64,000 bases of DNA from Sphingobacterium hotanense (GTDB lineage Bacteria; Bacteroidota; Bacteroidia; Sphingobacteriales; Sphingobacteriaceae). Both the position numbers and the translations under genes were made by a program. The stretch spans positions 1-64,000 of the forward strand of contig NZ_CP030848.1 of assembly GCF_008274825.1 (NCBI RefSeq). The letters are read 5' to 3'. Within the stretch, counting starts at the first letter, position 1; each line of letters starts with the position of its first letter. Below are positions 53,181 to 64,000 of the stretch, piece by piece. The notes under the pieces are model-generated. The model saw only the letters and a list, made by a program, of their open reading frames with translations, was not told where the DNA came from and did no database searches.

Positions 53181-53252
53181 GGCCCGTTCGTCTAGGGGTT
53201 AGGACGCAAGATTTTCATTCTTGAAACAGGGGTTCGATTCCCCTACGGGCTA
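53181..53252 (+). tRNA. tRNA-Glu (TTC anticodon)
   Basis: A 72-nt cloverleaf. The acceptor stem pairs GGCCCGT with ACGGGCT (terminal G-T). The D loop has TCTAGGGGTTAGGA, the anticodon loop ATTTTCATT gives TTC, and the T arm is GGGGTTCGATTCCCC. No CCA is encoded. The 3' part is overlapped on the other strand by the end of the integrase frame, marking the attachment site. Confidence 0.95.
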
Positions 53253-54777
53253 CTAAACAGGACAAATGAAATTTATTTTCGTTTGTCCTGTTCTTTTTTT
53301 GAAGTAATCCATTGTTTATCTGAAAGATATAGTTTGCGATTACGTTCATTCGGGTGGTTCGATAAATTTTTCCGTCAAACACCAATTTTTCAGGGAATAT
53401 CGAACCAATTATACCTCTCCTTGTTCTGATTTCACCCTCAGCGTACATTTTGGGAATATTTTCTATGTACTTTAAAGCCCTGTCTAAAGACTTATCTATA
53501 TTGATTTTCTTGGTATCAGAACCGTCTTTGCTCAACTGTTCTTCCAGACTCTCAATTCGTGTCTTACATTCATCTTTGATTTCGAGGTATTCCTCATCAT
53601 CAATAATTTCAGATAGCAGTTTGTTGCGTGCTACTGACAACCTTGCATTTAGTTTATCTATTTGCTGTGCAATCTGTTTCTTTTCGTCAAGTGGGTTGTT
53701 TACGAATTTCTTGTAGTTGTCCAACAACAGTTTTTTCACTATTTGAGCAGAACCGTTTAACGCAAACTGTCGCATACGCTTTTCAAAAATATCGTTGGCT
53801 AATTCAGCTTTTTGGCGGAAGCCACAGGATGAAACGCAATGATAGTAGTAATAACGGCTTGTTCTTCCTTTGGAAGCACTACCTGTTAGGTTGCGACCAC
53901 ATTTGGGACATACTAAGAAACCACGGAGGGGCAGGTTCTCATCTGAAAGTATTTTGGTATTAGGACGTTCTACCCTTTTATTTCCGTCCAATATCAGTTG
54001 CACCCTGTCAAAAAGTTCTTTGGATATAAGCGGTTTGTGCTGACCCTGTACCAGATGTGCTTCTTCGTCCTTGAATTTGGCTATGAATATCTTACCGTAG
54101 TATAGCGGATTGCGTACGGCTACGTGAAAAGCACTTCGACTTATCGTTGTCTTGTGTAATTTGTTCATTTTTTGCCGTACTTGGTCACAGGCAAACACGC
54201 CTTTTGCTATTTCGTTGAAAGCCCAACGCATAGCTGATGCTTCAGGTTCTTTTGGGGCAATGTATTTTCGTCCGTCCTCTTTGCTTCTGTTGATATATCC
54301 GAAAGGAGCTCTGCCCATTAAACGTCCCTCTTTCCTTGCCCTACGCATACCGTAAAACGTATTCAATGCCCTGCGGTCATTTTCCACTTCGGGAGCGGAC
54401 AGATATATCGCAAGCATCATCTTGTTTTCAGGAATGGAAAGGTCTAAAGGCTGTTCTACCGCTTGTGGTTCTATGCCAAGTTAGTTAAGTGTGCTAATCA
54501 TCTGATAGGCATCACCTGCATTACGGCTAAACCTATCCCATTTGGTAAACAGGATAAGGTTGGTCTTTGAACGTCTCTTTTTAAGACTGTTCAATAATCT
54601 TGTCCATTCGGGTCGGTTAAAGGTCTTGGCGGAATGGTCTTCGTAGATAACCTGTCCAACAGCAATCTTATTGGTCGCACAGTACCTTTTCAGACGTTCC
54701 TCTTGGTCACGCTGTGAATATCCCTTGTCTGCCTGTTCGTCCGTGGAAACTCGTATATATAAATCGGCTCTTTTCAT
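53215..54777 (-). pseudogene. Large serine recombinase (integrase) with one nonsense codon
   Basis: Resolvase-type N-terminus MKRADLYIRVSTDEQADKGYS with catalytic Ser near residue 11 and the R..DR motif TKWDRFSRN. After MISTLN a TAA (about 54481) interrupts the frame, which continues as LGIEPQAVEQPLDLSIPENKMM. The codon was most likely AAA (Lys), one base away. The second part has the recombinase domain and a zinc ribbon CPKCGRNL...HCVSSCGF, then a coiled coil. The last codons run antisense into the tRNA-Glu gene (VARRGIEPLFQE). Total 521 codons. It is inactive unless the stop is suppressed. Confidence 0.88.
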
Positions 54778-59995: not shown

Positions 59996-61417
59996 TCATA
60001 ACAATTTACCCAAAGCAATTATGCCCTCTTCCAGCTCTTTTCCAGAAAGCGAGCCGTATCCTAATCTTATGCCGTTTATGGTTTCATCGAAGCTATAAGT
60101 ATCGGGAGTCATGATTTTGATACCTTTGCTTTTTAGTTTTTTGGAAACCTGCAACCAATCCATTTGTTTATTTGGTACAATCCAGAAAGCCAAACCACCT
60201 TCAGGAATTGTATAAGTTGCTTTGTTCTTAATATGTTTATTCAGTACAGTTGCCATAAAATCCCTTTTGGCTTTGTAGTGGTTGGTTGCCTTTTTGATAT
60301 GCCGTTTTATTGTACCGTCTTTGATAAGTTGTAGAACAGCCTGTTCCATTATGCTGTCGCCTTGCACATCAATAATTTTTCGCAAACTGCCTACCTTTTC
60401 AATCAAAGCATCATCATTGCTTGCCAAATAACCGATACGCAGAGCAGGTGCAACAACTTTGCTCATTGTGCCGATATAAACATAATTTTTCAGTTCCGTA
60501 AAACTTGACAACGGCAATACAGGACGGTAACCAAAATGAAACTCATTATCATAATCATCTTCGATAATTGTAAAACCGTATTCGTTAGAAAGCCGTATCA
60601 ATTCCAATCTTCTTTTCAAACTCAATGTTACAGTAGTCGGATATTGGCGGTGCGGTGTAACGTAAATTGCCTTTATCTTTTTGCCCGATTTCAGATAGGC
60701 AATAACATCATCAATCAGCAGACCATCTTTATCTACACTTGCGGGTAACAACTTTGCATCTGCATTCTCAAACGCAGACCAAGCAGGTTTATAGCCAGGG
60801 TTTTCAACGATTACATAATCATTTTTTGTAAACAGGTATTGAGCCGTCAGATACATTGCCATTTGACTGCCACGAGTGATACAGATATTGTGTTCGTTTA
60901 CCTGCATACCTCTTTGATGATTGAGCATTTGAACAACGGATTTTCTAAATTCCAAATCGCCTAATTCGTTGCCGTAGCCCATCATCTGCCACCTTGCTTT
61001 TTGATTGAAGATTTGGCGGTACGCCCTTGCCAATTCTGTAATGGGTGCAATTTTGCTATCAGGACTTCCATCATCAAACTGTAAATGATAATGCTTGCTT
61101 ATTGTACTTTTTGCGGTAGCAGTTACACGATTACTTTTTTGTACTTCCTTAAAATCGGGCAATGTATCGGCAACAAAAGTACCCTGCCTTTCTTTGGGAA
61201 TTAGCCACCCCTCAATAATCAGTACGTTCAGAGCTTCCACAACGGTATTTCGATTGACCTTTAGAAGTTGTGCAAGGTTTCTACTGCCCGGCAACGCATC
61301 GCCTGCCTTTAACCTGCCCGAATGAATATCTTTTATAATGGCATCGGCTATTTGCAGATAAACGGCTTTATCCGATTTTTCGTCTAACTGTATTTCAAAT
61401 TTCCAACCTCGTAACAT
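59996..61417 (-). CDS. MocR-family regulator (GntR HTH + aminotransferase-like domain)
   Basis: 473 residues. The winged helix (about 10-75) has DIHSGRLKAGDALPGSRNLA and VNRNTVVEALNVL. The fold-type I aminotransferase-like domain covers about 110-473; the PLP lysine is in GTMSKVVAPALRIGY near 317 and the cofactor Asp in IIEDDYDNEFHFGYRP. It is divergent from the cupin operon, with paired direct repeats starting 1 bp from its ATG, so autoregulation is likely. Neighbours do not include pyridoxine genes, so it is not an obvious PdxR. Confidence 0.9.
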   Translation of the reverse strand: MLRGWKFEIQLDEKSDKAVYLQIADAIIKDIHSGRLKAGDALPGSRNLAQLLKVNRNTVVEALNVLIIEGWLIPKERQGTFVADTLPDFKEVQKSNRVTATAKSTISKHYHLQFDDGSPDSKIAPITELARAYRQIFNQKARWQMMGYGNELGDLEFRKSVVQMLNHQRGMQVNEHNICITRGSQMAMYLTAQYLFTKNDYVIVENPGYKPAWSAFENADAKLLPASVDKDGLLIDDVIAYLKSGKKIKAIYVTPHRQYPTTVTLSLKRRLELIRLSNEYGFTIIEDDYDNEFHFGYRPVLPLSSFTELKNYVYIGTMSKVVAPALRIGYLASNDDALIEKVGSLRKIIDVQGDSIMEQAVLQLIKDGTIKRHIKKATNHYKAKRDFMATVLNKHIKNKATYTIPEGGLAFWIVPNKQMDWLQVSKKLKSKGIKIMTPDTYSFDETINGIRLGYGSLSGKELEEGIIALGKLL

Positions 61418-61479
61418 CTGGACTATTTATTTTTATAAAAACTGTATCATTACAATAGTCCAAAGGTACAATACTTTTG
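61418..61479. promoter_or_regulatory. Divergent promoter and MocR-type operator, copy 1
   Basis: Direct repeats CTGGACTAT (61418-61426) and CTGTATCAT (61442-61450) are 24 nt apart. Rightward -7 box TACTTTTG (61472-61479) starts 30 nt after the second repeat. A leftward TACCTTTG lies on the minus strand (plus 61461-61468), so the mocR and cupin promoters are nearly back to back. No -33 box fits either, consistent with activator dependence. Confidence 0.75.
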
Positions 61480-61517
61480 TATCGCAATAGTGCAAAAAAC
61501 AATAAAAATTTTCAATT

Positions 61518-62018
61518 ATGTCAAAATTAGAAACAGCGACAGAAGTAAAAAAATCAATCCACGCAGAGCAAAAACAATTCAGCTCAAAGGATTTCCACCA
61601 GACATTTGCAAGACCGACATTTGTGAGAACATCACACGTTATTCACAAAAATGTTGAAAATGCAGGTGTACACAATCAGTTTTCGGAAGAAAGAAAGCAC
61701 CCTGTTTTCTTTGTGGACTTACCGAGCAAAAACGTAAGTATGACTATCGGCGGTTTATTGCCCGGACAAAAAACACACAAACATCGTCACACGTACGAAA
61801 CAATATTGTATGTGCTTGAGGGCAAAGGTTCAACGCTTGTAGAAGATGAAATCGTACAATGGCAAGCAGGCGATGCCGTTTATATTCCGTCTTGGGCGTG
61901 GCATCAGCACCAAAATTTAAGTGATAGCGAACCTGCCAAATATATCGCTTGCGAAAATGCACCTCAACTGCAAAACTTGGGCGTTGCGTTGCGTGAAGAA
62001 GAGGGCAGAGATTTTTAA
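61518..62018 (+). CDS. Cupin-domain protein
   Basis: 166 residues, single cupin fold. Metal-binding motif 1: PGQKTHKHRHTYETILYVLEG; motif 2: GDAVYIPSWAWHQHQN. The four expected ligands (two His, Glu/His, later His) are present, so a metal site is likely. It could be a small dioxygenase or isomerase; substrate unknown. First gene of the MocR-facing operon. Confidence 0.85.
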   Translation: MSKLETATEVKKSIHAEQKQFSSKDFHQTFARPTFVRTSHVIHKNVENAGVHNQFSEERKHPVFFVDLPSKNVSMTIGGLLPGQKTHKHRHTYETILYVLEGKGSTLVEDEIVQWQAGDAVYIPSWAWHQHQNLSDSEPAKYIACENAPQLQNLGVALREEEGRDF

Positions 62019-62039
62019 CTTTTAAAAACAAGATAATAA

Positions 62040-62939
62040 ATGAACAAAGTACCATTTAAAGGTGTAATTGCTTATCCTGTTACACCATTTGACAGCAACG
62101 AGAATATTGATATTCCGTTATTCAAAAAACAAGTTGAACGCTTGGTTACGGGAGGTTCTCACGGCATTGCCCCATTGGGAAGCACAGGTGTAATGCCTTA
62201 CCTCAACGATGCCGAAAAAGAAGCCTTGACCGAAACCTGCATACAGCAGGTAGCGGGCAGAGTGCCTACATTGGTCGGTGTTTCTAACCTTACCACAGAG
62301 AAAACCGTTTACCACGCACAATTTGCCGAGAAAGCAGGAGCAACGGCTGTAATGATTATTCCGATGAGTTATTGGAAATTGACCGATGATGAAATTGTGA
62401 AACACTACGATGCTGTCGCTTCAAAAATTTCCATTCCGATAATGGCATACAACAACCCTGCAACGGGTGGTGTGGATATGTCGCCTGTATTATTGAAACG
62501 TTTATTGGAAATCCCAAATGTTACGATGATAAAGGAAAGTTCGGGCGACATTCAGCGTATGCATTATTTGAGAAAAGAATTGGGCGAAGAAGTCGCTTTT
62601 TTCAACGGTTCTAATCCATTGGCATTGTCCGCTTTTTCGGCAGGTGCAAGAGGTTGGTGTACGGCTTCCCCCAATTTAATACCCGAACTTAACATTGCCC
62701 TTTACGATGCTGTACAGGAAAACGATTTGGAAAAAGCCCAACGAGTATTCTACAAACAGTTTGATTTGTTGAAATTCATTGTAGCTAAAGGTTTACCACG
62801 CTCTATAAAGGCAGGTTTAGATTTGTTGGGTGTAGGTGGTGGCGGTTTCAAAAGCCCTTTGCAACCGCTTAATGAAGCTGAAGTAGCAGAACTGGACAGC
62901 ATACTTTCGGCTATTGAAAGTGAAGTTTATCAGTATTAA
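62040..62939 (+). CDS. DapA-family (DHDPS/NAL) lyase or aldolase
   Basis: 299 residues of TIM-barrel type. The Schiff-base Lys lies in VTMIKESSGD near 162 and the catalytic Tyr in IMAYNNPATGG near 135. The substrate loop PLGSTGVMPYL differs from the PLGTTGE of true dihydrodipicolinate synthase (Glu replaced by Val), and the Arg of the lysine pathway enzyme is missing after YNNPATG. So it is probably a catabolic pyruvate- or keto-acid-forming enzyme, not lysine biosynthesis. Confidence 0.85.
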   Translation: MNKVPFKGVIAYPVTPFDSNENIDIPLFKKQVERLVTGGSHGIAPLGSTGVMPYLNDAEKEALTETCIQQVAGRVPTLVGVSNLTTEKTVYHAQFAEKAGATAVMIIPMSYWKLTDDEIVKHYDAVASKISIPIMAYNNPATGGVDMSPVLLKRLLEIPNVTMIKESSGDIQRMHYLRKELGEEVAFFNGSNPLALSAFSAGARGWCTASPNLIPELNIALYDAVQENDLEKAQRVFYKQFDLLKFIVAKGLPRSIKAGLDLLGVGGGGFKSPLQPLNEAEVAELDSILSAIESEVYQY

Positions 62940-62963
62940 CCATAATTCTAAAACAAAGTAAAA

Positions 62964-63194
62964 ATGGCAAGAGCAATTTTTTATCACGCAGGTTGTCCTG
63001 TATGCGTAAGTGCAGAAAAGGACATTTTAAATCTCATACCTGAAAATCAGGTTGAAGTAATCCATTTGGGTACAGACAAAATAAAAGTAAAAGATGCAGA
63101 AAGTGCAGGTGTAAAATCTGTTCCTGCATTGGTTTTGTCTAACGGCAATGTGTTACACATCAACTTTGGTGCTTCAATAGAAGATTTAAAGTAA
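62964..63194 (+). CDS. Small thioredoxin/glutaredoxin-fold protein with CPVC
   Basis: 76 residues. Active site YHAGCPVCVSAEKD at 8-21 and cis-Pro loop KSVPALVLSNG near 50. Short for thioredoxin, close to NrdH or glutaredoxin size. Could donate electrons or guard the ferredoxin, an inference from neighbourhood. Follows the aldolase by 24 bp. Confidence 0.82.
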   Translation: MARAIFYHAGCPVCVSAEKDILNLIPENQVEVIHLGTDKIKVKDAESAGVKSVPALVLSNGNVLHINFGASIEDLK

Positions 63195-63204
63195 TCCCAA
63201 TCTA

Positions 63205-63237
63205 AAAGTCCGAAAGTCTTTAATGCTTTCGGGCTTT
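63205..63237 (+). terminator. Intrinsic terminator-like hairpin inside the cupin operon
   Basis: GTCCGAAAG pairs with CTTTCGGGC (one G-T) around a 9-nt loop, followed by TTTAT. It may reduce transcription of the ferredoxin gene. Confidence 0.65.
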
Positions 63238-63282
63238 ATACATTATTGTTTCAGTGATAAGTTAAAACAAGTAAATTATAAT

Positions 63283-63615
63283 ATGAACCCGAAAGAAGAA
63301 ATTAAACTTGCCGAAGTCCAGGACGAGCAATCGGAAAACGTGGAAGTAATATTGACATTGAACGGCAATACAAAACATATCCAATGGAACAAACAGATAC
63401 CTTTGCTCGATGCGATGCTCAATGCAGGAATTGATGCACCACATTCGTGTTGCAGAGGTACGTGTGGCACTTGTGTATGTAAATTGGAGGAGGGCGAAGT
63501 ACGTTTAAGGAGGAATTTTGTTCTATCTGAAGTTCACATACAGCAAGGTTTGATTTTGGCTTGTGTAGCAGTTCCCATAAGTGCAAGCGTTAAAATAAAT
63601 TATGACGAGTTTTAA
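63283..63615 (+). CDS. [2Fe-2S] plant-type ferredoxin
   Basis: 110 residues from the ATG at 63283. The cluster ligands are CCRGTCGTC (Cys-x4-Cys-x2-Cys) near 60 and a fourth Cys in ILACVAVP near 96. It looks like a stand-alone version of the ferredoxin domain of oxygenase reductases. Its presence hints at an oxygenase or redox enzyme, not seen in the window. Confidence 0.87.
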   Translation: MNPKEEIKLAEVQDEQSENVEVILTLNGNTKHIQWNKQIPLLDAMLNAGIDAPHSCCRGTCGTCVCKLEEGEVRLRRNFVLSEVHIQQGLILACVAVPISASVKINYDEF

Positions 63616-63664
63616 AAAAGTACGATAACAAGAATACTTTTATTGATTAGCACTAATTGCGGGT

Positions 63665-63726
63665 CTGGACTATCTACTTATCCCTAAACTGTACCACCAA
63701 ACTAATCCTGTAATCTGATACTTTTG
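63665..63726 (+). promoter_or_regulatory. MocR-type operator and promoter, copy 2
   Basis: CTGGACTAT (63665-63673) and CTGTACCAC (63689-63697) are 24 nt apart. TACTTTTG (63719-63726) starts 30 nt after the second repeat. Both distances are the same as in copy 1. It precedes the GNAT gene. Confidence 0.75.
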
Positions 63727-63749
63727 TGCCATTATTAAAATTTATCAAA

Positions 63750-64000
63750 ATGGAGTTCAACATCAAAAAAGTAGGTCTAAACGATTTAGACACAACAGCA
63801 GAATTATTTAACCTTTATCGGGTTTTTTACCGTCAGGCAGACGATTACGAAAAGTGCAAACAGTTCATTAAAGAACGATTAGACAACGACCAATCAAACA
63901 TTTTTGTCGTGTATGCAGACGGCAAAGCAGTTGGATTTGTGCAGTTGTACAAACTCTATCATTACATCAAATTGGCAAAGCAATGGTTATTAAGCGATTT
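63750..64000 (+). CDS. GNAT-family N-acetyltransferase (3' end cut by window)
   Basis: The first 83 residues only. MEFNIKKVGLNDLDTTAELF and NIFVVYADGKAVGFVQLYKL are typical of the N-terminal half of GNAT proteins; the acetyl-CoA loop would lie beyond the window. The copy-2 MocR-type promoter links it to the cupin-aldolase module. Acceptor unknown. Confidence 0.8.
   Translation, partial: MEFNIKKVGLNDLDTTAELFNLYRVFYRQADDYEKCKQFIKERLDNDQSNIFVVYADGKAVGFVQLYKLYHYIKLAKQWLLSD

Follow-up and report, generated by a model that had tools for sequence, protein, structure and literature searches.

The far end of the window (the whole 64,000-nt stretch of Sphingobacterium hotanense DNA that was analysed) carries a gene for a MocR-type regulator, a divergent cupin-led operon and a GNAT acetyltransferase gene:

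59996–61417, minus strand: mocR, 473-aa GntR/aminotransferase-fold regulator, PdxR-like (Pfam GntR, 1.3e-17)
61518–62018, plus strand: cupin gene, first of the operon (Cupin_2, 1.2e-16)
62040–62939, plus strand: dapA-like gene, DHDPS/NAL family class I aldolase fold (DHDPS, 1.6e-56)
62964–63194, plus strand: small thioredoxin-like gene (trx) with a CPVC motif (Thioredoxin_3, E 0.00035, under the curated cut-off)
63283–63615, plus strand: 2Fe-2S ferredoxin gene (Fer2, 4.6e-16)
63750–64000, plus strand, continuing to genome position 64196: GNAT acetyltransferase gene, 148 aa (Acetyltransf_1, 6.7e-20, whole protein)

MocR joins an N-terminal GntR winged helix-turn-helix (HTH) to a C-terminal fold-type-I aminotransferase domain, and its Lys320 (GTMSK) aligns with the Schiff-base lysine (GTFSK) of GabR (4n0b), so that PLP binding is predicted; it belongs to the family to which a preliminary description of this DNA had assigned it. 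The protein scores 347 bits with NCBIfam PLP_TF_PdxR (equivalog NF052282), above the curated cut-off of 320, but in its own genome the sites described below lie only at the cupin and GNAT promoters and not at genes for PLP synthesis or salvage (pdxST, pdxK), and for this reason we file it as PdxR-like rather than as PdxR. Another PdxR-like MocR of this genome lies close to a bioF-like gene (1950337–1951716); the 4.4-kb stretch read there contains no such site. The dapA-like product scores below the TIGR00674 cut-off for DapA, its best solved relative being 3na8 (5.6e-95).

Two sites of the same build precede the cupin and GNAT genes:

61418–61426, plus strand: site 1 box 1, CTGGACTAT, adjoining the mocR start codon, roughly −66 to −58 relative to the predicted cupin start
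61442–61450, plus strand: site 1 box 2, CTGTATCAT, repeating box 1 directly at +24 and covering the −33 area
61455–61464, minus strand: site 1 box 3, inverted, AATAGTCCAA (minus strand TTGGACTATT), with [AG]GTCC kept in 66/69 sites adjacent to mocR
61461–61468, minus strand: predicted mocR −7 element, TACCTTTG, overlapping box 3
61472–61479, plus strand: cupin-operon −7 element, TACTTTTG, predicted start near 61484
63665–63673, plus strand: site 2 box 1, CTGGACTAT, with an orthologous site 84–89 nt before GNAT in 10 relatives
63689–63697, plus strand: site 2 box 2, CTGTACCAC, with orthologous sites in relatives
63702–63711, minus strand: site 2 box 3, weak, CTAATCCTGT, with the offset that box 3 has in site 1
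63719–63726, plus strand: GNAT −7 element, TACTTTTG, predicted start near 63731

The identical geometry described earlier can be read directly from the DNA: CTGGACTAT occupies 61418–61426 and 63665–63673, CTGTAYCAY follows at +24 in both sites (61442 and 63689), and TACTTTTG stands 30 nt beyond box 2, at +54 from box 1 (61472 and 63719). The mocR ATG (minus strand, 61417–61415) directly abuts box 1, in keeping with the statement that the first site sits on the mocR start. The window contains two copies of CTGGACTAT-N15-CTGTA, with 0 expected from 100 dinucleotide shuffles, and the genome scan that the preliminary description had proposed returns the box pair at 61418 and 63665 only in the 4.49-Mb genome. 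Elsewhere in this genome there is no third box pair within 1 mismatch, and the three-element pattern with up to 2 mismatches detects no further site (control, 0); a looser form of it gives a single extra match, which lacks a proper box 1. Other candidates in the genome were rejected, being near matches to the box pair without the remaining elements. Chance as the origin of the twin sites is ruled out by the shuffles and the whole-genome scans. The two sites lie within 2.3 kb of each other and their −7 elements are identical (8/8), as a recent duplication without selection on geometry would have it, but we find that scarcely credible: the linkers between boxes 1 and 2, correctly said before to differ, agree at only 8/15 positions, against 9/9 in box 1 and 7/9 in box 2, and the geometry recurs upstream of more than 10 types of non-orthologous gene in other genomes, several orders being represented.

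Start positions were predicted from the −7 element alone. In Flavobacterium psychrophilum TAnnTTTG lies at −12 to −5 (PMC9723704); with that placement, box 1 covers about −66 to −58, box 2 −42 to −34 and box 3 −29 to −20. Box 2 is thereby predicted to occupy the place of the −33 element. The −7 element of Bacteroidota sigma-A promoters is present at both sites, and in 93 of 106 sites (100 loci and the own region) an exact TAnnTTTG lies 30 nt from box 2. A TTG in the −33 slot is found in just 10 of the 106, about the expectation from base composition, so the −33 area is as vacant as had been supposed. In MocR operators a box is repeated two to four times, in direct or inverted orientation or both, at distances of roughly one or several helical turns. 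Here there are two direct boxes and one inverted box, the commonest MocR layout according to Suvorova and Rodionov (2016; PMC5320631); the 24 bp from start to start amount to about 2.3 turns, and the spacing therefore corresponds only roughly to whole turns.

The geometry is conserved well beyond this genome. A scan based on the cupin gene collected 80 loci (labelled L### as fetched), the genus names of which we take to place them in Sphingobacteriales, Flavobacteriales, Chitinophagales and Cytophagales. The two boxes are spaced by exactly 24 nt in all 80 cupin promoters fetched and in the window, 81 sites that include many close relatives and are not independent, the effective number being about 17. 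The first 8 bases of box 1 are invariant in 67/67 deduplicated sites, which were collected by a CTGGAC pattern, and over 100 loci and the own region the spacing is 24 in 98 of 105 distinct pairs. A scoring matrix built solely from cupin promoters, with a null maximum of 8.9 bits in 1 Mb, gives the GNAT site of the window 43.6 bits and finds non-training sites at 16–45 bits in relatives. Ten loci have one 84–89 nt ahead of GNAT; L068 and L103 carry it in front of a trx–GNAT pair, L061 and L104 in front of trx, and L119 in the gap that separates a relocated mocR from trx. Since GNAT sites are detected by a matrix that had seen cupin promoters only, the sharing of one signal by the two units is confirmed out of sample, which bears out the proposed link between them. 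Loss of the pattern in relatives that keep both genes, which had been named as evidence against the link, was looked for; a second site, before GNAT or trx–GNAT, is present in 12 of the 13 loci that keep GNAT, and in the thirteenth (L047) GNAT is now inside the first operon. An exact-pattern search over the whole class matched in only 2 of 395 genomes, and is thus specific but too tight. The loose pattern, in turn, has false positives, as its matches in L187 and L194 have no fitting gene downstream.

Two features had escaped the preliminary description, the inverted third box and a predicted mocR promoter that overlaps it. Across the cupin promoters, columns 37–50 are approximately NYRGTCCAAANNTA, in which box 1 recurs in inverted orientation and continues into CAAANNTA (minus strand, TANNTTTG). 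Of 69 distinct sites with a divergent, adjacent mocR, 65 contain CAAANNTA, as opposed to 0 of 31 sites without one; the mocR start codon directly adjoins box 1 in 65 of the 69. Among the four exceptions for CAAANNTA, three belong to Flavobacterium or Flavobacteriaceae and have the variant CTAAGTTA, and the other is L177, in which mocR is 81 nt distant. CAAANNTA is missing from cupin promoters without an adjacent mocR (L064, L066, L119, L178), and in L119 it is found at the site of the relocated mocR, beside trx. It is best read as a putative mocR −7 element covered by box 3. The TCC of box 3 is retained in 20 of 31 non-mocR sites, and the box is weak at GNAT and trx promoters; at site 2, where the GNAT gene has no divergent mocR, a weak box 3 and the lack of the mocR −7 element are as expected. 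Because box 3 overlaps the predicted mocR −7 element in site 1, autorepression of mocR is likely. A GCAATARTG-like stretch at the predicted cupin start (61484–61492, offsets 66–74 of site 1) is strongly conserved even without an adjacent mocR. Its GCAAT (offsets 66–70) was considered as a mocR −33 element and rejected, since it is kept in the cupin promoters of L064, L066 and L119, and it is therefore part of the cupin leader.

Both sites probably serve the neighbouring PdxR-like MocR as operator-promoters, and this protein would activate the cupin operon and GNAT, repress its own gene and form with them a mobile regulon. A MocR dimer, arranged head to tail, would bind the two direct boxes, which are 24 bp apart and centred at about −62 and −38. 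Standing in the place of the −33 element, it would recruit RNA polymerase to the TAnnTTTG fixed 30 nt downstream, switching on cupin–dapA–trx–fdx and, independently, GNAT, presumably with PLP or a PLP adduct as the ligand. At site 1, binding to the inverted box 3 over the mocR −7 element would repress mocR. Box 3 lies downstream of the −33 area and upstream of the −7 element, a position that would also suit a MocR that represses both operons by sitting over the core promoter until a ligand releases it, and the MocR of the cio/dapA cluster of Pseudomonas pseudoalcaligenes is reported to repress, the cio proteins being constitutive in the mutant (unpublished data cited in PMC8567248). Such a mode of action is nevertheless unlikely here, as there is no −33 element to compete for, repression needs no fixed 30 nt to the −7 element, boxes 1 and 2 are located upstream, and box 3 is poorly conserved where mocR is not adjacent. 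That a regulator other than the adjacent MocR binds the sites is very improbable. Binding by MocR is predicted from sequence, and L066 and L185 have a site and no mocR in the stretch fetched; against this, a divergent mocR adjoins the cupin site in nearly all loci, with box 1 set against its start codon as described above, the site in L119 accompanies the relocated mocR, and the half-site is like a known MocR half-site.

The direct-repeat promoter, which we assign to MocR, precedes further genes in other Sphingobacterium. Allowing up to 2 mismatches, the three-element pattern gives about 90 matches in the genus versus 3 with reversed-pattern controls, many of them in genomes without the cupin. 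In 20 matched regions, in which COX1 and FixO were recognized by Pfam and other genes named by eye, the sites are followed by SHMT–pdxK (as in L178), HAD and class-III aminotransferase, yggS–GATase, AAA, trx, GNAT and deoxyhypusine-synthase-like genes. Operons for a cbb3-type oxidase (COX1 and FixO) are under or downstream of promoters of the same geometry in L175, L177, L178, L183 and L186, the assignment being Pfam-tested in L177 and by likeness in the other four, and a PS decarboxylase is under the same geometry in relatives. The MocRs of the examined Sphingobacterium genomes form one supported clade (97/98) with the cupin-type MocRs.

A second, divergent tRNA-Cys gene follows GNAT in the S. 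hotanense genome, 239 nt beyond the end of the window (64239–64310). It has the lowest score of the 55 tRNAs of the genome, the housekeeping tRNA-Cys being at 1479655–1479725; C33 replaces U33, and the acceptor and anticodon stems are kept by paired changes. Related tRNA-Cys genes are found inside the regulon in L045, L048, L049, L175, L177, L178, L183 and L184, in several loci within the promoter leader or right before a start codon. The one in L178 begins about 10 nt past the predicted start of a MocR-type promoter, and no ORF was found between it and the next promoter. In L047 and L067 the anticodon is altered.

The module is accessory and horizontally mobile, and would move as a self-contained regulon. 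The cupin is present in 21 of 94 Sphingobacterium genomes, and the MocR of the window is nearest (96%) to that of Avrilella (Flavobacteriaceae). DNA identity to relatives extends from mocR through ferredoxin and then gives way to shuffled pieces; MobC- and DUF3408-type mobility genes adjoin mocR. A plasmid search found cupin–dapA pairs on plasmids of Hymenobacter (L202), Chroococcidiopsis (L203) and Gluconobacter (L204), with boxes only in Hymenobacter, where by eye the box spacing is 23 instead of 24 and the −7 element still 30 nt away. The cupin–DapA pair is kept across phyla, and a glutamine amidotransferase follows it in Chroococcidiopsis and Gluconobacter. Elsewhere in the window, two ORFs (54001–54777) contain serine-recombinase-like pieces at a distance of about 0.8 kb from a tRNA-Glu gene (53182–53254), and the stretch is possibly the integration end of a mobile element. 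Just downstream of the module, four loci (L045, L047, L048 and L049) have another MocR gene, which is unrelated to the first (about 23% identity) and divergent to an EamA-type transporter gene.

What the regulon serves can be read in more than one way. Ordinary vitamin B6 homeostasis in the manner of PdxR, with no part in stress defence, has in our estimate somewhat less than an even chance. The score above the PdxR cut-off favours it, as do the recurring pdxK, yggS (COG0325), GlyA, DapA, RimI/RimL and GATase genes, nearly all of which occur in PdxR regulons; PMC5320631 reports DapA, RimI/RimL, COG0325, GlyA and GuaA-type amidotransferase genes there. Conversely, the whole-genome scan found no B6 biosynthesis gene with a site in S. 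hotanense, and B6 homeostasis does not account for the promoters of this build that relatives have at genes for a cbb3-type oxidase, a PS decarboxylase and tRNA-Cys. We tentatively propose, with the chances rather against it, that this MocR clade controls a regulon with which Bacteroidota withstand cyanide or other poisons that attack carbonyl groups, and of which the window would hold a mobile short version. Cyanide reacts with PLP (PMC10790758), and the regulator would detect the poison through its own PLP and act through one fixed promoter geometry, turning on spare enzymes with PLP or carbonyl cofactors (SHMT, class-III aminotransferase, PS decarboxylase, DapA-like aldolase) together with PdxK, YggS, the cbb3-type oxidase and a dedicated second tRNA-Cys. 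This is a real possibility because a heme-copper oxidase and spare PLP enzymes recall two MocR systems tied to cyanide. Possibly, the regulon serves another amino compound instead.

One of those two systems is that of MpaR of Pseudomonas aeruginosa, a MocR that drives a heme-copper oxidase subunit (ccoN4) and has its motif 61–62 bp upstream of the start, near the centre of box 1 here; unlike our boxes, that motif is palindromic (ATCTGAT), and the system is cyanide-induced (PMC10790758). The other is the mocR–cio cluster of P. pseudoalcaligenes CECT5344, with a divergent mocR beside DapA, ArgD, SerC and a terminal oxidase (PMC8567248, PMC11049912) as well as HisC (PMC11049912); its oxidase, however, is of the cytochrome bd type, its MocR is reported as a repressor and a cupin is not mentioned in these sources. 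The PdxR regulons of PMC5320631 resemble the present case in the PdxR-model score, the two direct and one inverted boxes and the DapA-, GNAT-, COG0325-, GlyA-, GATase- and PdxK-type targets of this clade. They differ in that here no pdxST was seen, the target set is extended by cupin, trx, ferredoxin, cbb3-type oxidase and tRNA-Cys genes, and the promoter is of the Bacteroidota type without a −33 element. The motif may already have been predicted among the 8 Bacteroidetes regulogs of that study. TauR of Rhodobacter capsulatus, a MocR-family activator, binds direct repeats (CTGGACYTAA) resembling our CTGGAC (PMC5320631), whereas its targets are taurine genes and its host promoter is different. 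GabR of Bacillus subtilis, the solved structure of which aligns with MocR over the HTH and aminotransferase parts, is likewise autorepressor and activator, but its box sequence and target genes differ.

The promoter layout is of a known kind; what would be novel is the possible cyanide-type regulon with its own tRNA-Cys. To our knowledge, few activator-promoter geometries have been worked out in Bacteroidota, and the present sites offer a precise, testable grammar (box 1, 24, box 2, 30, −7 element) for activator-dependent promoters of this phylum that lack a −33 element. Moreover, the two outputs of one regulator would be separable by sequence, an activating direct-repeat core on the one hand and on the other an inverted box on the regulator's own −7 element, which vanishes once the regulator gene relocates. 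If the cyanide-type reading is true, the sensing of poisons through PLP would extend to a second phylum, and a tRNA gene would count among the members of a MocR regulon.
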